From: an uncultured Clostridia bacterium
GTDB taxonomy: Bacteria; Bacillota; Clostridia; Oscillospirales; Ruminococcaceae
Length of the DNA stretch: 64,000 nucleotides
NCBI GenBank assembly: GCA_945876435.1
Contig: CAMCOD010000003.1
Span: 45,881-109,880, forward strand
Reading direction: 5' to 3'
Part shown: one piece after another, positions 19,387-32,249 of the stretch
Position numbering within the stretch: position 1 is the stretch's first letter
Layout: every line of letters begins with the position of its first letter
Made by a program: the position numbers and the translations under genes
Notes under the pieces: generated by a model
Database searches by the model: none
What the model was told of the DNA's origin: nothing
Seen by the model: the letters and a program-made list of their open reading frames with translations, nothing else

Positions 19387-19881
19387 TTAAAATCCCCGGT
19401 ACTCCTGCATCTTGACAATATTGCAGACGATGTTTTTACCATTTATGTCGATGATACCGTAAGTGGGATAGAGCGAATCCCGCGGACAGGAAATGCTGCC
19501 GGGATTCATAATGTATAAACCGTCGTCATACTCTACATGGGATACATGCGTATGTCCGTAAAGGACGACACGGGCTTCTTTTTCCCTTGCTCCCAATTTC
19601 AGCTCGTCCAAATCGAATTTAACCTGCCAATGGTGACCATGGGTCATCATGATCTTTACTTCTTTTACCCAGGAATAAGCGGTGGATTCCTCGCTTGCGC
19701 TATAGTCACAGTTGCCCCGAACACACCAATACTCCTTATTGGGGTATTTGCTCATGAGACGTTTAAATTCTTCCAGTCCATCGCCCAGATGGATGAACAG
19801 CTTGGCAGACTTTTGCTGCTCCACTGCCGCTTCCATCGCCGGCGTGATACCGTGGGAATCGGAAAAAACAACAATTCGCAT
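19387..19881 (-). CDS. metallophosphoesterase, YfcE/MJ0936 family
   Basis: MRIVVFSDSHG...FIHLGDGLEEF...VRGNCD...MMTHGHHW...VVLYGHTHVSHVEYDDGLYIMNPGSIS; RBS AGGAGG. Confidence 0.94.
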   Translation of the reverse strand: MRIVVFSDSHGITPAMEAAVEQQKSAKLFIHLGDGLEEFKRLMSKYPNKEYWCVRGNCDYSASEESTAYSWVKEVKIMMTHGHHWQVKFDLDELKLGAREKEARVVLYGHTHVSHVEYDDGLYIMNPGSISCPRDSLYPTYGIIDINGKNIVCNIVKMQEYRGF

Positions 19882-19894
19882 GGAATTCCTCCTG

Positions 19895-20080
19895 TTAGTT
19901 CTGCTTACGGACAATTTTATATTCGTCGTACAGTTGATAATATGGACAATCATAACAGGAGCCGGACAAAAAACGGTACATCTCGTCCTCATCCAGATTG
20001 ACCTCACAGCAGTAACAATCCCATTCATCATCATAAGCATAATGAACACAGGTTTCACAGCTGGTTTGCTTTCCTGCCAT
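19895..20080 (-). CDS. Cys-rich 61 aa protein, DUF6472-like
   Basis: MAGKQTSCETCVHYAYDDEWDCYCCEVNLDEDEMYRFLSGSCYDCPYYQLYDEYKIVRKQN. Confidence 0.7.
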   Translation of the reverse strand: MAGKQTSCETCVHYAYDDEWDCYCCEVNLDEDEMYRFLSGSCYDCPYYQLYDEYKIVRKQN

Positions 20081-20237
20081 AACCGTACCTCCTTTTGTTT
20101 TTTACTTATTTTGCTTTACAGGAATAGTATACCATGAAATCGCCTTCCATGAACATTTCTACAAAAATTATTCTTTCTGCAACTTTTTCTGTTTTCCTGA
20201 ATAAAATGAAACTGTACTTTCCCATTTATCCATCATT

Positions 20238-20259
20238 ATCAATACACAATCAATACACA
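20238..20259 (+). repeat. tandem 11-bp repeat upstream of the small-protein cluster
   Basis: ATCAATACACA repeated twice with no gap, just upstream of the RBS at 20272. Confidence 0.6.
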
Positions 20260-20271
20260 GGCGGTGATTTT

Positions 20272-20526
20272 ATGCCAAATCCCATCCACTTGACCCCGGC
20301 CCAAACGGAAGCACTGATCCAATCCCTGGCTCAACAGCTTCACTGTGACCCCAATACTCTGCGGCAACAGCTGCAAAGCGGCAATATCAGCGGTATTGCC
20401 AACTCCATGGGCGGCGATGCTGCCCGGCAGGTACAACAGCTGCTGAAAAACCCCCAACAGCTTCAGCAGGCTATGAATTCCCCGGAGATGAAGGAGCTTC
20501 TCCGGCGTATTCAAGGTCAAAAATAG
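20272..20526 (+). CDS. hypothetical Q-rich helical protein (84 aa)
   Basis: MPNPIHLTPAQTEALIQSLAQQLHCDPNTLRQQLQSGNISGIANSMGGDAARQVQQLLKNPQQLQQAMNSPEMKELLRRIQGQK; GGCGGTGA RBS. Confidence 0.7.
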   Translation: MPNPIHLTPAQTEALIQSLAQQLHCDPNTLRQQLQSGNISGIANSMGGDAARQVQQLLKNPQQLQQAMNSPEMKELLRRIQGQK

Positions 20527-20556
20527 AAAAAGGAAACCATCCGGAAAGGAGGAAGC

Positions 20557-21039
20557 ATGGAAGACCTTACCAGCCGCATCAATCAAATTCTCAACGATCC
20601 CCAAAGCATGCAGCTTATCCAAAATATGGCGCAAAATCTGGGTCTAAATCCGGCAGCTCCCCCTGCTGAGGCGCAGTCCATGGTTCCTGCACCGGCTTCC
20701 TCCCAAGCTCCGGCAGCCGCCAAAGCACCAGAAAACGGCGGCATTGATATCAATCAGTTGGTGGGAATGCTGGGGCAGCTGGGGCTGGGCCAGCAGAATC
20801 AGTCCCAGCCTCCTGCTCCTCCTCCCATCGACCTGAACACCATGATGCAGATTCAAAAAGCCATGCAGCTGTTCACCAACGGCAATAAAAGTGTGGATCT
20901 GCTGCGCTCCCTGCGCCCCCTTCTCTCCCAAAGGCGACAGCGGAAGGTGGATGATGCCATTCGGATCATGCAGTTGATCCAAATGCTGCCCATGCTGAAA
21001 GAATCCGGCCTGTTCGGTTCAGGAGGTGGTCTGTTATGA
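20557..21039 (+). CDS. hypothetical protein with P/A/Q-rich linker (160 aa)
   Basis: MEDLTSRINQILNDPQSMQLIQNMAQNLGL...LLRSLRPLLSQRRQRKVDDAIRIMQLIQMLPMLKESGLFGSGGGLL; AAAGGAGG RBS; overlaps the next start. Confidence 0.75.
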   Translation: MEDLTSRINQILNDPQSMQLIQNMAQNLGLNPAAPPAEAQSMVPAPASSQAPAAAKAPENGGIDINQLVGMLGQLGLGQQNQSQPPAPPPIDLNTMMQIQKAMQLFTNGNKSVDLLRSLRPLLSQRRQRKVDDAIRIMQLIQMLPMLKESGLFGSGGGLL

Positions 21040-21440
21040 AGTGGCAGAACGGCAATTACTCCCGGGACGACCTGAAGGCCATGCAGAAGGATGCCATGGA
21101 CCGGGTCAGGGAGATGCAGCGGCGGGCAGACGAGACCTTACGCCGCAGCAACAGCGCCATGGCTTCCGCTTCCCCTGCATCCAAACCGGCTCCACCCCCT
21201 TCCCCAGCGCCAAAAGCACCTGCGGAGCCGACCCCTGTGCCTCCGCCCGCCTCTCCAGCCGCTGCGGCTCCGTCTGGAATACATGCGGCAAAGCCCAGCG
21301 GCGGACGATTGTCTCAAATTCTGTCGGCAGCCGGTATGGATCAGGACCGACTGATCATTCTGGGGCTGTTGTTTGTTCTGTACAACGACGAGGAAGCCGA
21401 TCGACTGTTGCTTTTGGCTCTGTTGTACCTGCTTTTATGA
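21036..21440 (+). CDS. hypothetical protein with P-rich linker and hydrophobic C-terminus (134 aa)
   Basis: MKWQNGNYSRDDLKAMQKDAMDRVREMQRRA...GGRLSQILSAAGMDQDRLIILGLLFVLYNDEEADRLLLLALLYLLL; ATGA overlap with the upstream gene. Confidence 0.75.
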   Translation: MKWQNGNYSRDDLKAMQKDAMDRVREMQRRADETLRRSNSAMASASPASKPAPPPSPAPKAPAEPTPVPPPASPAAAAPSGIHAAKPSGGRLSQILSAAGMDQDRLIILGLLFVLYNDEEADRLLLLALLYLLL

Positions 21441-21480
21441 CTTCCGCCGGAGATTTTCTTTCGGTGGAGGTCTTTTTTTG
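21440..21480 (+). terminator. intrinsic terminator of the three-gene cluster
   Basis: GACTTCCGCC-ggagattttcttt-CGGTGGAGGTC-TTTTTTT. Confidence 0.75.
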
Positions 21481-21571
21481 ATTAAAGACCCTTCGAACCT
21501 CCAAGGCTCTTTTTGGATATAATGAAATGAATCCTGTTTTTACCGCAAACCCAACAAAGGAGGTACCATTT

Positions 21572-22669
21572 ATGTCCGAACGGAAGCCCTGCCACTTTTT
21601 TCTTGGAGCCAACAGTCCCCAGGGATTTTATTCTCTGTTTGATGAGCTGGAGTTCAGCCGCCAACCATGGCACATTTTCCTGATCAAAGGCGGCCCAGGC
21701 TGCGGAAAATCCACTTTTTTAAAGCATGTCGCCGCTTCTTATGAAGCCTCTTGTCCCCAAATGGAGTTGATTCCCTGTTCTTCGGATCCAGACTCTTTAG
21801 ATGCTGTCATCCTACCGGAGCTGCACCTGTCCCTTATGGACGCTACCGCTCCCCACGCCAAAGAAGCCGCTGTTCCGGCGGTCCGCCACACGATTTTATC
21901 CTTTGGGGATTATTTGGACGGTCTGGCTCTGCAGGAATACCGACGGGAGATCGAATCCATCTGCGCCTCCACACCGGAATACTATAAGCTGGCCGTATCC
22001 TATCTAACGGCGGCCCAGGCTTTCCTGCGAAACTCCTACCATATTGCCTCCTGCGCAGTGGATGAGGAAAAAATCGAAGGCTACGCCCAGCGCTTTGCCG
22101 CCAAGAGCTTCCGGCCAAGAGAAGGATTCGGCAGTGAAAAACGCCGCTTTTTGACTACTATCTGCTCCGAAGGTCTGGTCACTTTGGAAGAAACTCCGGC
22201 ACAGCTTTGCCGCAAACTGTATCTGATTGACGACGACTGCGGCGCAGTGGCGCACAGCCTGCTTTCTGCTCTTCGACGCTGCGCTTTGAAGGCTGGTCAT
22301 GAAGTGATCACCTGCACCTGTCCCATGGATCCAGAGCGGAAAATTGAGCATCTGCTGATCCCAACGGCTGGCATTGGCTTCTTGACCAGCAACCACTTCC
22401 ACCCTATGGAAGGCTGCGGTGCTGTCCGGAAGATCCATGCCCGCCGTTTCCAGGATCAAGAGCTGATGACCTGTAAAAAGAACCGTTTTGCCTATAACCG
22501 CAAAGCTGCCCAGACCCTGATCCAGCAAGCTGTTCTGCTTCTGGAAGAATCCCGTCAGCTTCACGACCATCTCGAGCGGCGATACACCGCTGCCATGGAT
22601 TTTGACGGCCTGAACAAACACTATCCCCAGCTCATGAAGCTGATCGGCGATTATTCTTCTGCCAACTGA
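21572..22669 (+). CDS. P-loop ATPase family protein (PRK06851-like)
   Basis: MSERKPCHFFLGANSPQGFYSLFDEL...HIFLIKGGPGCGKSTFLKHVA (Walker A); RBS AAAGGAGG. Confidence 0.7.
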   Translation: MSERKPCHFFLGANSPQGFYSLFDELEFSRQPWHIFLIKGGPGCGKSTFLKHVAASYEASCPQMELIPCSSDPDSLDAVILPELHLSLMDATAPHAKEAAVPAVRHTILSFGDYLDGLALQEYRREIESICASTPEYYKLAVSYLTAAQAFLRNSYHIASCAVDEEKIEGYAQRFAAKSFRPREGFGSEKRRFLTTICSEGLVTLEETPAQLCRKLYLIDDDCGAVAHSLLSALRRCALKAGHEVITCTCPMDPERKIEHLLIPTAGIGFLTSNHFHPMEGCGAVRKIHARRFQDQELMTCKKNRFAYNRKAAQTLIQQAVLLLEESRQLHDHLERRYTAAMDFDGLNKHYPQLMKLIGDYSSAN

Positions 22670-25261: not shown

Positions 25262-25363
25262 TCCTTTCTTTTCGGTTCATTATAGCACAAAATCAGAGAA
25301 AAGCAAAAGTTCATCTGAAAGCAAGTGTAGAAATCACCGGCAAAAAATTGGTGATTCTGCTTT

Positions 25364-25392
25364 TTGAAGCATGAACAGAGGCGTAGTATAAT
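25364..25392 (+). promoter_or_regulatory. sigma-A-type promoter for the S9 peptidase gene
   Basis: TTGAAG - 17 bp - TATAAT. Confidence 0.65.
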
Positions 25393-25460
25393 ACAAGAGA
25401 ACAAGCAAATACCTTTCCAAGGAATTAACAAGCAAAGAATTGATAAGGAGGACAACCGAT

Positions 25461-27440
25461 ATGGATAACCTGAGACTTAAGGATTTTCTGGATTACCGCT
25501 ACCTTTCCGCATTGGAAATGGCTCCCGACGGTGAACACGCCGTCTTTACTGTCAGCACAGCGGATCTTGAAAACAACACATACCACAGCAATCTCTGGCT
25601 TTACACACGGGAAAACGGCAGAGTCAGCCGTCTGACTACAATGGATCAGGAAAAATTCCCGGTATGGCTGGACAACAGCACCATTCTTTTCCCCTCCATG
25701 CGGGATACCGCTTGCCGCGCAAAAATGGAGAAAGGGGAACGCTGGACCATTTACTATTCCATCCGGATTGACGGCGGCGAGGCGGAGGAATATTTGCGTC
25801 TGCCTCATGAAGTATCTTCTTTGATCCCTCTGGGCGGTGACAAATTCCTGCTTACAGTCAAACAGCATAACGACAGCATGGACCTTCACGCTTTTTCTGC
25901 TGCGGAAAAAGCAGAAAAAGAGAAGGAATGGAAGCAAAACCGGGATTACGAGGTACTGACGGAAATTCCCTACTGGTCCAACGGTGTCGGCTTCGTCAAC
26001 GGACAGCGCAACCGCCTTTATCTCTACGATAAAACCAACGATTCCATGACTCCTATCACCGGAGAGTGGGAGAACGCCCGCTACTGCTCCAAAAAAGAGG
26101 GAAAAATTCTCTTCCTGTCCCACCTCTTCCAGGATAAACAGGAGAGAACGTATGGACTTTTTGAATATGATCTGCTGTCCGGACAAACCTGCACACGGAT
26201 TCCGGACGGTACATACAGCTTTGGCATGGCGGACTATCTGGACGGTGGCATTGTCTGCACCGCCTCCGACATGAGCCGCTACGGCATCAATGAAAACAGG
26301 GATTTCTACTGGGTAAAAGAAGGAAAACTGTGTCCACTGGCTGTCCATGATCTGGGCTTTGGCTCCAGCATTGGCTCTGACTGCCGCTTCGGTGGCGGAG
26401 ACAGCTATCAAGTGGCAAACAACGCCCTTTACTTTCTCTCCACTGAAGGAAGCAGTTCCTTCATTAAAAAACTATCTCCCGACGGCTCCATCCAGACCTT
26501 AACAGCAGCCAACGGCTCCGCAGACTGTCTTGCTGTCAGCGAAAAGGAGCTGCTTTTCGTGGGTATGAGAGGGCAGAAACTACAGGAACTTTACCGTCTG
26601 GAAACTCCCGGCGAGGTTTCGCTTACTCACTTCAATGAAAAAGCCCTTGAAAACAAGTATGTCGCTGTTCCTGAATCTGTTCCCTTTGAAAATGACGGCG
26701 TTGCTTTGGAGGGCTGGGTGCTCAAACCGAAGGACTTCAATCCTCAGCAGAGCTACCCGGCGATTTTGGACATTCACGGTGGCCCCAAAACCGCTTACGG
26801 GGAAGTATTCTTCCATGAGATGCAGCTTTGGGCTAACATGGGTTATTTTGTATTCTTTTGTAATCCCCGCGGCGGCGATGGCCGAGGCAATGAGTTTGCT
26901 GACATCCGGGGCAAATACGGTACCATTGATTACGAAGATCTGATGAAATTTACGGATGTAATTCTGGAGCAGTACCCGCAAATCGACTCCAAGCGGGTCG
27001 GCGTCACCGGCGGCAGCTATGGTGGTTATATGACCAACTGGATCATCGGCCATACGAACCGCTTCGCCTGTGCCGCATCCCAGCGCAGCATCTCCAATTG
27101 GATCTCTATGTTCTGCACCACCGATATCGGCTATTACTTTGCAGACGACCAATGCGCTTCCACTCCTTGGGTACAACAGGAGAAGCTGTGGTGGCATTCC
27201 CCATTGAAATACGCCGATCAGGTAAGCACTCCGACTCTGTTCATCCACTCTGAGCAGGATTACCGCTGCTGGCTCACAGAGGGTCTGCAAATGTTCACTG
27301 CCTTAAAATATCATGGTGTGGAAGCAAGGCTCTGCATGTTCCGGGGCGAAAACCACGAACTTTCCCGCAGCGGCAAGCCCCGTCATCGGGTAAGACGTCT
27401 GGAGGAGATCACCAACTGGTTCGAGGAGCATTTGAAATAA
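25461..27440 (+). CDS. S9 family peptidase (prolyl oligopeptidase/acylaminoacyl peptidase)
   Basis: 659 aa. DIHGGPKTAYGE, GVTGGSYGGYMTNWIIGHTNRF, HSEQDYRCW, GENHELSRSGKPRHRVRRLEEI. Confidence 0.95.
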   Translation: MDNLRLKDFLDYRYLSALEMAPDGEHAVFTVSTADLENNTYHSNLWLYTRENGRVSRLTTMDQEKFPVWLDNSTILFPSMRDTACRAKMEKGERWTIYYSIRIDGGEAEEYLRLPHEVSSLIPLGGDKFLLTVKQHNDSMDLHAFSAAEKAEKEKEWKQNRDYEVLTEIPYWSNGVGFVNGQRNRLYLYDKTNDSMTPITGEWENARYCSKKEGKILFLSHLFQDKQERTYGLFEYDLLSGQTCTRIPDGTYSFGMADYLDGGIVCTASDMSRYGINENRDFYWVKEGKLCPLAVHDLGFGSSIGSDCRFGGGDSYQVANNALYFLSTEGSSSFIKKLSPDGSIQTLTAANGSADCLAVSEKELLFVGMRGQKLQELYRLETPGEVSLTHFNEKALENKYVAVPESVPFENDGVALEGWVLKPKDFNPQQSYPAILDIHGGPKTAYGEVFFHEMQLWANMGYFVFFCNPRGGDGRGNEFADIRGKYGTIDYEDLMKFTDVILEQYPQIDSKRVGVTGGSYGGYMTNWIIGHTNRFACAASQRSISNWISMFCTTDIGYYFADDQCASTPWVQQEKLWWHSPLKYADQVSTPTLFIHSEQDYRCWLTEGLQMFTALKYHGVEARLCMFRGENHELSRSGKPRHRVRRLEEITNWFEEHLK

Positions 27441-27450
27441 CATAGGAAGA

Positions 27451-27486
27451 AAAAAGGCCACTCCCTATAGGGAGTGGCCTTTTTTC
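27451..27486. terminator. bidirectional intrinsic terminator
   Basis: AAAAAAGGCCACTCCC-TATA-GGGAGTGGCCTTTTTT. Confidence 0.9.
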
Positions 27487-27490
27487 TGAA

Positions 27491-28570
27491 TTATTTCTGA
27501 TGAGCCGCCGCTTCACAGTATTCGCAGCGGTAGCTGCCGCTTTCCTCGTCCAGATGGAAGATTTGTGGCAGCCCCTGTTCAATGGTGGTGATACAATGGG
27601 GGTTCTCACAGGTGAATTTGCCCCGTACCGCCGGACCCAGTTTCTTTTTCTCCGGCTGTTTGTTCAAATCCAGTGTTCCCATTCCCAGCAGGTTCAGGAT
27701 CAGGCTCATGCGGATCACTTTGCCAAAGAACACCTGTTTAAAGTAGCAGGCTCTCGGATCCTCGTTGACTCTGGGCAGCGGATGAAGAATGCACAGATCT
27801 TTTTTTGCGGGAACCAGTTTCTCCTTGTCCAGAATATAGCAGCCTTTCAGCCGTTGATACTCTTCCTCGCTGGCAAAACGCTCCCGCTGGATGCGGGTCA
27901 TGTAGAGAATATCCAGTTCCGGCATTTTTTCATCCAAACTTTCCACTTCCACATAGGGGATGTGGTTTTTATCCAGGAATTCTTCCTTTACATAAGCCGG
28001 CAGGCGCAGTTCCTCCGGTGCGATGAGAACAAAACGAATCCCGCTGTAGCGGCTCATGGCGGCAATCAGGGAGTGAACCGTGCGGCCAAACTTCAAATCA
28101 CCGCAGAGACCGATACACAGGTTGTCCAGATGGCCCTTGATCCGGTGAATACTCATCAGATCGGTGAGAGTCTGGGTCGGGTGTTGATGGCCGCCGTCGC
28201 CGGCGTTGATGATCGGGACAGGAGAATACTTGGAGGCAACCCCCGGCGCGCCCTCTTTCGGGTGACGCATTGCGATAATATCCGCGTAGCAGCCCACTGT
28301 GCGGGCAGTATCAGCAACGCTTTCACCTTTGGCGGCGGAGCTGGAGCTTGCGGAGGAGAAGCCCAGAACCTTTCCGCCCAGACTCAGCATGGCGGACTCA
28401 AAGCTCAGGCGGGTACGGGTGCTTGGCTCATAAAACAGAGTCGCCAGAATCTTTCCGTCGCACTTGTGAGCGTATTTTTCCGGATGGTCGATGATGTCGT
28501 CACCGGTTTTTAGCAGTTCGTCGATCTCCTCGACAGTCAGGTCCATTGGTTCGATCAAATGTCTCATCAT
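27491..28570 (-). CDS. pyrB: aspartate carbamoyltransferase with C-terminal PyrI-type zinc domain
   Basis: [41 protein letters not shown], then [44 protein letters not shown] at the MMRHL start. Confidence 0.92.
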
Positions 28571-28581
28571 AGCTTCCTCCA

Positions 28582-28712
28582 ATCCAAAAATAAAGGCCCT
28601 TCTGCACGCAGAAAGGCCCAAAAACTCCATAATTCACCCAAGGTGTACGGTTAAGTTTCCTTTCCAGCCTCTCTGTGCATAGTTAAAAGTAAACTTCTTT
28701 CCGTTAAGGATA
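28582..28712 (-). promoter_or_regulatory. PyrR-type attenuation leader of pyrB
   Basis: Minus-strand AGAGAGGCTGGAAAGG (28659-28674) resembles a PyrR binding loop. Followed by terminator hairpin GGGCCTTTCTGCGTGCAGAAGGGCC-TTTATTTTT (28582-28619). Confidence 0.7.
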
Positions 28713-28735
28713 CACCATAGGGCAGAAAATGTCAA
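28707..28735 (-). promoter_or_regulatory. sigma-A promoter of pyrB
   Basis: TTGACA (28730-28735) - 17 bp - TATCCT (28707-28712). Confidence 0.75.
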
Positions 28736-28812
28736 TAAAAATCGCCAGGAAATATCGTTGACGGAAGCTTTTGCATTGGTTATACTAAAATTCGGAAAAG
28801 GAGGATATTTGG

Positions 28813-29457
28813 ATGATCAAACGGATTATTTTTGACTTTGACGGCACCTTGGCCAATACCGTTCCCTTGTGCATGACCTGTTTTCATGATGCCTGGGAGC
28901 CTTTTGTGGGCCATCCTTTAACGGATCAGGAGATCTTCGCCACCTTCGGCTATTCGGAGGAGGGCATGATCCAGCAGTTGATGCCGCCCCCGTGGGAGAA
29001 AGCCCTTGCCGAGCTTTATCAGATGTATGAGCGGCTGCACCCTGTTCTCTGCCCGGCTCTTTTTGACGGCATTGTGGAATTGCTGAACAGCTTGAAGGCC
29101 AAAGGTATACCTCTTGATCTGCTCACTGGCAAAGGAGAACGCTGCTGCGACATTTCTCTGGCTTATTTTCATTTGAAAAACACTTTCGATATCATCATTC
29201 CGGGAGATCCGGAAAAACGTCACAAAACGGATGCTCTCTGTGCCATCATGGCCCGCACCTGCACGCGTCCGGAGGAACTGCTTTACATCGGCGATGCCCC
29301 TTCCGATGTAAAAGCCTGTCAGGCTGCCGGCGTCCGCTGCCTTTCTGCCGCATGGACGCCTGACGCCAACCAAGCGGAACTGGAACAACTGAATCCAGGT
29401 CTTGTTTTTTCCTCAGTAGGGGCATTGGATGCCTATCTTCAAAATCTTTTAACGTAA
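28813..29457 (+). CDS. HAD family hydrolase (phosphoglycolate phosphatase/PpaX-like)
   Basis: IIFDFDGTLANTVPLC, LLTGKG, PEELLYIGDAPSDVKACQAAGVRCLSAAW. Confidence 0.9.
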   Translation: MIKRIIFDFDGTLANTVPLCMTCFHDAWEPFVGHPLTDQEIFATFGYSEEGMIQQLMPPPWEKALAELYQMYERLHPVLCPALFDGIVELLNSLKAKGIPLDLLTGKGERCCDISLAYFHLKNTFDIIIPGDPEKRHKTDALCAIMARTCTRPEELLYIGDAPSDVKACQAAGVRCLSAAWTPDANQAELEQLNPGLVFSSVGALDAYLQNLLT

Positions 29458-29468
29458 AAGTTAACGTA

Positions 29469-29497
29469 AAAAGGCTGCACTGTGTGCAGCCTTTCCT
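29469..29497. terminator. intrinsic terminator
   Basis: AAAAAGGCTGCAC-TGT-GTGCAGCCTTTCC. Confidence 0.8.
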
Positions 29498-29514
29498 TCA
29501 TTTATCGCTCACGT

Positions 29515-30303
29515 TTAGAGCAAAACTTTATTTTCCTTATCCGGCTTACCAAAGCGTTCCAAACAACCTCTGCCGCCGGCCGGTACACCGGATTCCTCGG
29601 AAAAGTCAATGGCTCCTTCCGGACAGAACTTGGCGCAGGCCCGGCAGACAATGCACTTGGAAGCATCAATATCCTTAATATTGCTCGGGTTGATAGCCCC
29701 GGTAGGACAAGCAGCAGCACAGGTACCGCAGTTAACACATTTTTCGCTGACAACAGGTGCCACACCCTTCTTCCCGGCTGGAGTTTTCAACAGGTCAAAA
29801 ATCTTCAGCGCTTCTTCTCCTCTTTGGATTTTTTCCATGACGGAGCGGCCAAAATCCTCCGCCTGTGCCAAATCCGCTTCATTGGGACGGCCTTGGGCTA
29901 CCTGACTGTTGTAGCTGTGCTCGCCGATAAACATGCCGCAGGCCATAGGCAAAAAGCCATTGGGACGAAGTCGTGCATAAAGCTCGATCAGCGCATGGTC
30001 ATAATCTCGGTTTCCGTAAACCGCCAGCAGCACACAGGGGGTGTTCTGCCCTCTGAGACCGTCGATGTAATCCACACAAAGGGCAGGAATCCGTCCGGCG
30101 TAAACCGGAACGCCTACAATCACCAGCGTATTTTCATCAAAGCAAGGGCTATTCCCCCGCTGTCTGGGTGTGGTAAAATCATATTCCGCGCCCAGAGGCA
30201 AACCACTGCCTTTTGCGATCGCCCTGGCAACTCGCTGTGTGGTATGGGTTGGGCTGAAATAAACCAGAGAAACGGAATTTACCTTCATAGCTAAGACCTC
30301 CAA
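29515..30303 (-). CDS. EFR1-type flavodoxin-ferredoxin (2x[4Fe-4S]) protein
   Basis: SLVYFSPTHTTQRVARAIA flavodoxin N-terminus; CVNCGTCAAACPTGAI and CIVCRACAKFCPEGAI clusters. Confidence 0.9.
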   Translation of the reverse strand: MEVLAMKVNSVSLVYFSPTHTTQRVARAIAKGSGLPLGAEYDFTTPRQRGNSPCFDENTLVIVGVPVYAGRIPALCVDYIDGLRGQNTPCVLLAVYGNRDYDHALIELYARLRPNGFLPMACGMFIGEHSYNSQVAQGRPNEADLAQAEDFGRSVMEKIQRGEEALKIFDLLKTPAGKKGVAPVVSEKCVNCGTCAAACPTGAINPSNIKDIDASKCIVCRACAKFCPEGAIDFSEESGVPAGGRGCLERFGKPDKENKVLL

Positions 30304-30304
30304 T

Positions 30305-31420
30305 TTATTTAAAGTACATATACACCTGACATTTGATCATACCGTTGTACAGCTTGCGGCGCTTGTCCGCCTTTCGCCCAAAGTAAGTTTCAAAATCTTC
30401 GTCCGGACTGATGATGTAGAAGCGATCCTTTTCTCTTGGATCAAAGACCTTACCCATGGTACGGTAGATTTTTCGGGCCTCCTGCACATCCAGCAGACGC
30501 TCGCCGTAAGGCGGGTTGCAGATGAGAACGCCCTTCCCCTCGTTCATGGCAAAATCCTTCACATCCCGCTGTTCCACATGAATGCGGCTGCTCACACCGG
30601 CCTGTTTGGCATTGTGCTGGGTCAATTCCACCGCCTCCGGGTCGATATCGCTGCCGTAGGCTGCAAAGCTTGCGCTCCGGTCGATCAGGTCGAAGGCTCT
30701 CTGCCGTTCCTGCTGCCAGATTTTCGCCGGGATAAAGTCCCATTTCTCTGCGGCAAAGGGGCGGCGCAGTCCCGGAGCGATCTTCATTGCGTGCAAAGTG
30801 CCCTCGATCAACAGGGTACCGGAACCGCAGAAGGGATCATAAAGGGCTGAATCCGGATACACTCTCGCCAGGTCGATGATCCCCGCAGCCAATGTTTCCT
30901 TGATTGGCGCAATAACAGAATTTCTTCGGTATCCCCGCTTATGCAGGCCAACACCGGAGGTATCCAGCATAATGAGGCAATGATTTTTATGGATACCGAA
31001 CTCGATCTGATGGACCGGCCCGCTTTCCTCGAACCAACTAATACCGTAAACCTCCGAAAGTCGGTTTACCATAGCCTTTTTGATGATTTTCTGACAGTCC
31101 GGGATGCTGTGAAGCTGGGAATTTAAGGACCAGCCCTTTACGGGGAAGGCATCCTTTTTGCCAATGTAGTCCTCCAGCGGAAGCTTTTTGACCCCCTGGA
31201 ACAAATCCTCAAAAGAAAAGGCATCAAATTCGCCCAGCAGAATCTGGACTCTCTCCGCCGTACGCAGGCAGATATTCGCCCGAGCCAAAATAGACTCATC
31301 GCCGGAAAAAGTCACTCGTCCGTCGCTGACACGGACATCCTCGCCGCCAATGCGGCGGATTTCAGAAGAAAGTACGCTCTCCAGTCCGAAGTGGCAGGGA
31401 GCCGTTAGTTGAAATTTCAA
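30305..31420 (-). CDS. THUMP-domain class I SAM-dependent RNA methyltransferase (RlmL N-domain/YpsC type)
   Basis: GLHKRGYR, DPFCGSGTLLIEG, YGSDIDPEAVELTQHNAKQAG, LICNPPYGERL. Confidence 0.93.
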   Translation of the reverse strand: MKFQLTAPCHFGLESVLSSEIRRIGGEDVRVSDGRVTFSGDESILARANICLRTAERVQILLGEFDAFSFEDLFQGVKKLPLEDYIGKKDAFPVKGWSLNSQLHSIPDCQKIIKKAMVNRLSEVYGISWFEESGPVHQIEFGIHKNHCLIMLDTSGVGLHKRGYRRNSVIAPIKETLAAGIIDLARVYPDSALYDPFCGSGTLLIEGTLHAMKIAPGLRRPFAAEKWDFIPAKIWQQERQRAFDLIDRSASFAAYGSDIDPEAVELTQHNAKQAGVSSRIHVEQRDVKDFAMNEGKGVLICNPPYGERLLDVQEARKIYRTMGKVFDPREKDRFYIISPDEDFETYFGRKADKRRKLYNGMIKCQVYMYFK

Positions 31421-31511
31421 AGTTGTTCCTCCGTTATCTCACAAGGTTTATTCGTCTGTTTCCAGTTTAGCAGAGGACCGATACAAATGCAAGCGAAAGG
31501 CTCTTCTGCAA

Positions 31512-31546
31512 GAAAAAAGCTCCGGAGAGCTTGTCCCCGGAGCCTG
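31512..31546 (-). terminator. terminator of hpf
   Basis: Minus strand GGCTCCGGGGACAAGCTCTCCGGAGCTTTTTT. Confidence 0.8.
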
Positions 31547-31555
31547 TATTTGCTT

Positions 31556-32083
31556 TTATTCTTCATCTTCTACAGCTTCAATAACACCGTAAGCGCCATT
31601 GTTGCGTTTATAAACCACATTGATCTCGCCAGTGCTGCCATTGCGGTATACAAAGAAGCTGTGTCCCAGCATATTCATCTGGAGAATAGCCTCTTCCACA
31701 TCCATTGGCTTAACTGGGAAACGTTTGGTGCGGACAACCTGATACTCTTCCGGCTGATAAGGAGCATCATCATACTCGGCATTAAAGGCAGACGCTTTCA
31801 GGCGATGTTCCAATTTATTTTTATTTTTTACGATTTGACGGAACAGCAGGTCACACACGCTTTCCAGAGAATCAATGCGGTCGGAAGTCGTTTTCTCAGC
31901 TCTGAACACAAGCTTTTCTGCTTTGATCGTAACCTCGACCGTCTCCCTTTCACCCTCATTGGTTACGGTAACAAAAGCCTTTGCATCATCGAAGAAGCGA
32001 TCGAATTTTCTGAGCTTTTTCTCAACACGCTCTTTGAAGGAGTCTTTCACAACAGTGTTACGAGCAGAAATAGTAATATTCAT
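31556..32083 (-). CDS. hpf: ribosome hibernation promoting factor, long form
   Basis: MNITISARNTVVKDSFKERVEKKLRKFDRFFDDA...VVRTKRFPVKPMDVEEAILQMNMLGHSFFVYRNGSTGEINVVYKRNNGAYGVIEA. Confidence 0.97.
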   Translation of the reverse strand: MNITISARNTVVKDSFKERVEKKLRKFDRFFDDAKAFVTVTNEGERETVEVTIKAEKLVFRAEKTTSDRIDSLESVCDLLFRQIVKNKNKLEHRLKASAFNAEYDDAPYQPEEYQVVRTKRFPVKPMDVEEAILQMNMLGHSFFVYRNGSTGEINVVYKRNNGAYGVIEAVEDEE

Positions 32084-32249
32084 AGATCCAACTCCTTTGG
32101 TTCAGAACTCTCTTTGGGAAGCAGATCCCTTGGATAAGTTCACTATATTTTGTGATTATATTATAGTACAAATTATCGAAATCGTCAATAGGTTTTGTCC
32201 ACTTTCTCCACAGTCTTTTCCATTTCTTATTTTTCTCTTAAAAACAACG

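Follow-up and report, generated by a model that had tools for sequence, protein, structure and literature searches.

Lists of sporulation genes rest largely on Bacillus subtilis. In this species, CwlJ is made in the mother cell and placed with GerQ, and SleB is made in the forespore and placed with YpeB (PMC11841064). The promoters of Clostridioides difficile that depend on sigK carry an AC in the -35 element and those of sigE an ATA, while their -10 elements are very similar (PMC3789822). Among eukaryotic chaperones, the STI1 grooves of ubiquilin bind hydrophobic segments of low helicity and transmembrane domains (PMC13083928). Here we describe a locus of three small clostridial genes, p1, p2 and p3 (together the trio), and compare it with these systems.

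The trio lies in a window of 64 kb, the whole stretch of DNA that was analyzed, which covers positions 45881-109880 of its contig in a 1.93 Mb genome that is 99.8% complete. The features of the locus are collected in Table 1. The lengths of the three plus-strand ORFs agree with the original prediction, as do the 30 nt between p1 and p2 and the 4-nt overlap of p2 and p3. The RBS-like sequences AGGCGGTG ahead of p1 and AAAGGAGG ahead of p2 and the single strong terminator were also found as described, and the quoted motifs are present in the proteins. The tandem 11-mer ATCAATACACA occurs exactly twice in the 64 kb, in tandem, where 0.01 would be expected. As the 11-mer was not found in the matching region of the four nearest relatives, the repeat is probably incidental, and we rejected it as a regulatory site. 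The gene past the terminator (21527-22669, plus strand) matches NCBIfam PRK06851, an unnamed P-loop ATPase, with an E-value of 1.5e-56 but under the cut-off, and it adjoins the trio in close relatives only.

Table 1. Positions of the trio and its associated features in the window.
Feature	Position	Strand	Description
Putative -35 element (AC, sigK type) in GCAACTTT	20182-20183	+	16 nt ahead of the -10 element; AACTTT shared without change by five species of the genus
Putative -10 element AATAAAAT	20200-20207	+	one-base variant of CATANNNT, AATA for CATA
Tandem 11-mer ATCAATACACA x2, 5′ leader	20238-20259	+	not conserved; probably incidental
Gene 1 (p1)	20272-20526	+	ORF, 84 aa; helix chain with NP/SP motifs, weakly STI1/HOP-DP-like
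Gene 2 (p2)	20557-21039	+	ORF, 160 aa; helix pair at the N-terminus, P/A/Q linker, conserved helical domain at the C-terminus
p2 C-terminal domain, family-defining	20824-21027 (aa 90-157)	+	Pro invariant at one position; Leu, Asp, Ala and Gly nearly invariant; pLDDT mostly ~75-95
Gene 3 (p3)	21036-21440	+	ORF, 134 aa; charged helix at the N-terminus, P/A linker, hydrophobic tail at the C-terminus
p3 tail	21339-21437 (aa 102-134)	+	two ~11-aa hydrophobic segments flanking an acidic loop
Intrinsic terminator, operon end	21439-21479	+	-22.3 kcal/mol, z -6.43; U tract directly after it

To follow the trio across genomes, we used p2. A search with the single sequence detected it in 33 of 61 relatives, and a profile of the C-terminal domain raised this number to 49, among which each of the 24 further families sampled from the order is represented. 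Across the class, the domain is present in 156 of 293 genomes and 96 of 181 genera. Outside the class but within the phylum there are few clear matches, about seven at E < 1e-9, and at several of them a p3-like gene lies alongside. Among 80 distinct loci, p1 flanks p2 in about 77 and p3 in about 72, as counted by automatic ORF picking in which some errors remain; several of the remaining loci are cut by contig ends. The order p1-p2-p3 is kept in almost all loci, and together with the spacing it is maintained across many families far beyond chance. The trio is a conserved operon, and it is conserved across Clostridia, far outside close relatives. Its carriers include the cultured species Negativibacillus massiliensis, Massilioclostridium coli and Merdimmobilis hominis. 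At the same time, Pfam and NCBIfam searches with the window proteins and their relatives left the window proteins without a match above the curated cut-offs, which bears out the original prediction of uncharacterised proteins. In three genomes the p2 domain is present twice, at sites apart from each other, and in one of these genomes only one copy adjoins sleB. In one relative, p2 contains an in-frame TAG stop, possibly marking a decayed copy or a sequencing error.

We compared the distribution of p2 with that of SpoIVA. The domain was detected in 150 of the 220 class genomes with SpoIVA and in 6 of the 73 without it (odds ratio 24, Fisher p-value of 1.5e-20), statistics that ignore relatedness although the genomes are phylogenetically non-independent. 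This indicates a strong preference for spore-formers, a point that the original prediction had raised for checking. p2 was not detected in the other 70 of the 220 SpoIVA-positive genomes, and 12 of the 61 relatives are without it, 10 of which carry SpoIVA (one of the same genus and about nine of the same family). Since some SpoIVA-positive genomes have no p2, the trio appears to be dispensable in some spore-formers. The non-independence of the genomes and the six p2-positive genomes without detected SpoIVA would also suit a general vegetative membrane-associated scaffold, retained in spore-formers by shared ancestry. However, these six genomes are drafts, 91-99% complete. In addition, a mother-cell-type promoter was replicated in two sets of loci in which sigA-type patterns are not enriched, and sporulation genes recur as neighbours in different lineages (both below). 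We regard a vegetative role as very unlikely, and the trio is very probably a sporulation operon.

The region upstream of p1 was analyzed for promoter motifs in 74 loci. CATANNNT was found in 48 of them. Dinucleotide shuffles gave 13.0 (sd 3.3), and the reverse strand had the motif in 11 loci. AC-N15-17-CATANNNT was found in 15 versus 1.5 expected. A further 38 loci of other orders replicated this result, with 29 versus 10.1 for CATANNNT and 11 versus 1.4 for the extended pattern. Patterns of the sigA, sigF and sigG type showed no enrichment in the first locus set or in the further 38. Over the loci, the spacing of the -35 element peaks at 14 and 16 for ATA and at 16-17 for AC, both being over-represented. 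In the window, AATAAAAT aligns with CATATAGT in N. massiliensis and with AATACAAT and AATAGAAT in two relatives. Comparison of five species of the genus revealed a footprint in which the AACTTT block is invariant and AC lies 16 nt ahead of (C/A)ATANNNT, while the spacer diverges. Based on the enrichment of CATANNNT, the -35 spacing and this footprint, the predicted promoter of the trio is likely of the mother-cell sigma type (sigE/sigK), although the window's copy of the -10 element has AATA in place of CATA. sigK would fit the genus footprint best, and sigE is also possible. Expression of the trio in the mother cell is thus probable.

Next to the trio, the commonest gene is a divergent metallophosphoesterase (YfcE-like; 19387-20058 on the minus strand in the window), seen at 20 loci and often with BirA/CoaX beyond it. 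This neighbourhood, the commonest within the order, is uninformative. At six loci, very small proteins are encoded just upstream of the trio or of p2. They contain repeated hydrophobic stretches (e.g. SSILFFILVFLLLFY) or are rich in Gly and Cys and have hydrophobic runs, which recalls small spore proteins. Those tested had no Pfam match over the cut-off. In the genome of the window, sigK is apparently split at positions 25307-32224 of the same contig, some 14-20 kb before the window begins. About 6.2 kb separate its N- and C-terminal pieces. This intervening stretch encodes a large serine recombinase of 540 aa together with an amino-acid ABC transporter and a MATE-type protein, and makes up a skin-like element.

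Several neighbours are sporulation genes. bofA is found just downstream of the trio in 6 of the 61 relatives, preceded by DUF2508 (yaaL) in two, and DUF1256 (yyaC) follows the trio in one relative. The orders trio-bofA and trio-DUF2508-bofA, as well as the serine recombinase between the sigK halves, raise the idea of a checkpoint function, in which the trio would work with BofA to modulate the processing of pro-sigK. Yet bofA is located elsewhere in most genomes, the linked cases may represent one clade, and a sigK-type promoter would put the trio downstream of the checkpoint; such a function is highly improbable. The genome of the window displays no linkage among trio, bofA and sleB.

In 22 genomes of the class, from four families, the coordinates place sleB downstream of the trio on the same strand, and reading of the ORFs adds two families and probably a third. 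Two of the trio-linked proteins reached 303 and 289 bits with TIGR02869, above its cut-off of 236.5, and are true SleB. Among the matches listed, ypeB adjoins a different Hydrolase_2/SleB copy in at least 18 of the 22 genomes. The SleB beside the trio is thus an additional copy, and ypeB, where seen, pairs with another. We therefore rejected a replacement of YpeB by the trio genome-wide, as ypeB is usually also present. The directly downstream, co-directional sleB, its distinction from the ypeB-paired copy and the precedent of the B. subtilis enzymes and their partners would all agree with the trio being chiefly an accessory of a cortex-lytic enzyme. In this view, it would be a functional counterpart of YpeB-SleB or GerQ-CwlJ and would position or inhibit the second SleB, the one without YpeB, at the cortex on its mother-cell side. 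However, most genomes with the trio, including that of the window, have no sleB link, and the linked cases come from 4 to 7 families. Moreover, the trio-sleB gaps of ~25-470 nt leave room for a separate sleB promoter, although none was seen. Overall, this narrower role seems unlikely.

To see which features the proteins share, we inspected alignments and AlphaFold models. The original prediction had described low-complexity proteins, which holds for the linkers only; in the alignments, p1 over most of its length and p2 and p3 at their ends show conserved helical sequence. p2 begins with a helix pair of the consensus xxILxDPxxMxxIxxLAxxLG, followed by a variable linker and the C-terminal domain with the consensus xxLLxALKPxLSxERxxKVDxAIxIMxLxxLLPLLKESGLxxx, for which the prediction is confidently helical. 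p3 starts with a charged helix, whose consensus is MQxDAxxRVxEMQxRA or, in a more specific form, MQxDAxxRVREMQRRA, and continues with a P-rich (P/A) linker. The design of its tail is common to 64 of 72 homologues, with median lengths of 11, 7 and 11 for the segments. The usual Kyte-Doolittle threshold for a transmembrane helix is 1.6, and the highest 19-residue mean in the p3 tail is 1.27. The tail had been called membrane-like, but neither of its two segments, at 11 residues each, has the length of an ordinary transmembrane helix.

p1 appears in the alignments as a series of short helices with NP/SP turns, and its model, which is of low confidence (pLDDT 67), contains six short helices. Foldseek searches against the PDB with the AlphaFold models returned nothing significant. 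Thirteen of 33 p1 members matched the STI1-HOP_DP profile with a best E-value of 1.3e-5, and a control set of p2 gave no match to it. The p1 of the window scored 16.2 bits, under the curated cut-off of 29.1. A sequence search of solved structures found mainly designed repeat proteins and a marginal match to yeast STI1 (E 0.023). As a lead only, this resemblance suggests hydrophobic helices as possible ligands of p1, in analogy to the transmembrane segments that STI1 domains of ubiquilin bind.

The original prediction mentioned neither a promoter of the sporulation type nor neighbouring sporulation genes, nor the faint similarity of p1 to STI1; its idea of a scaffold or anchoring complex is plausible as a hypothesis. 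We slightly favor a reading in which the trio is an operon of the mother cell whose products would build or tether structures at the outer membrane of the forespore, the cortex and the inner coat; for a role as an envelope assembly or tethering module as such, we put the chances at even or marginally better. A mother-cell product with a short hydrophobic tail and flexible linkers would suit the forespore outer membrane or the cortex-coat boundary. According to co-occurrence, neighbourhood and promoter statistics, the trio would be transcribed in the mother cell by a sigE- or sigK-type RNA polymerase, and its products would most likely act together on the mother-cell side of the developing spore, at the sites named above. 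p3 may serve as the tether, its short hairpin-like hydrophobic tail inserting shallowly in, or packing against, a membrane, while the flexible linker would project the N-terminal helix. p2 would be an adaptor whose flexible linker joins two helical modules. The small STI1-like p1 might hold hydrophobic helices, of the p3 tail and/or p2, until assembly. Since several lineages link the trio to a second, YpeB-unpaired SleB, one of its jobs there may lie in positioning proteins of the cortex or envelope or keeping them in check, comparable to YpeB-SleB and GerQ-CwlJ. The most specific version, in which p1 is a mini-chaperone that cradles the p3 tail and, with p2 as adaptor, builds a platform on the mother-cell side of the forespore outer membrane that places the YpeB-independent second SleB and other envelope proteins, is quite unlikely as a whole.

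The presence of the trio in about two-thirds of the SpoIVA-positive genomes of one Clostridia class, under no Pfam or NCBIfam name, points to steps of spore-envelope assembly that are specific to Clostridia. Many gut Oscillospirales probably sporulate and are hard to study, and the trio provides both a marker and a concrete target in them. With a second SleB that is not paired with YpeB beside the trio, the placing and silencing of clostridial cortex-lytic enzymes becomes directly testable.

Compared with STI1/HOP-DP and ubiquilin STI1 domains, p1 shares short consecutive helices, NP/SP turns and weak profile matches, and the p3 tail resembles the hydrophobic ligands of ubiquilin. In contrast to these chaperones, p1 is bacterial and has no TPR or ubiquitin-related domains; the p1 of the window stays under the curated cut-off, and its fold comes from a low-confidence model. 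BofA, DUF2508 (YaaL) and DUF1256 (YyaC) adjoin the trio in some relatives, but their sequences are unrelated to it and the linkage is lineage-specific. The SleB-YpeB system of Bacillus and Clostridia likewise belongs to sporulation and germination, with small accessory protein(s) beside sleB in some trio lineages and a proposed site at the membrane or cortex. However, the trio consists of three short proteins that contain linkers instead of one large PepSY-type protein and has no sequence relation to YpeB, its promoter is of the mother-cell type, and most trio loci are without sleB. In the Pfam and NCBIfam searches, no match over the cut-off indicated homology of the trio to YpeB or GerQ. Although the trio has no sequence similarity that we found to GerQ-CwlJ of B. 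subtilis, and the enzyme at trio loci is SleB and not CwlJ, this pair, with an accessory factor for a Hydrolase_2 enzyme on the mother-cell side, is the nearest analogy.
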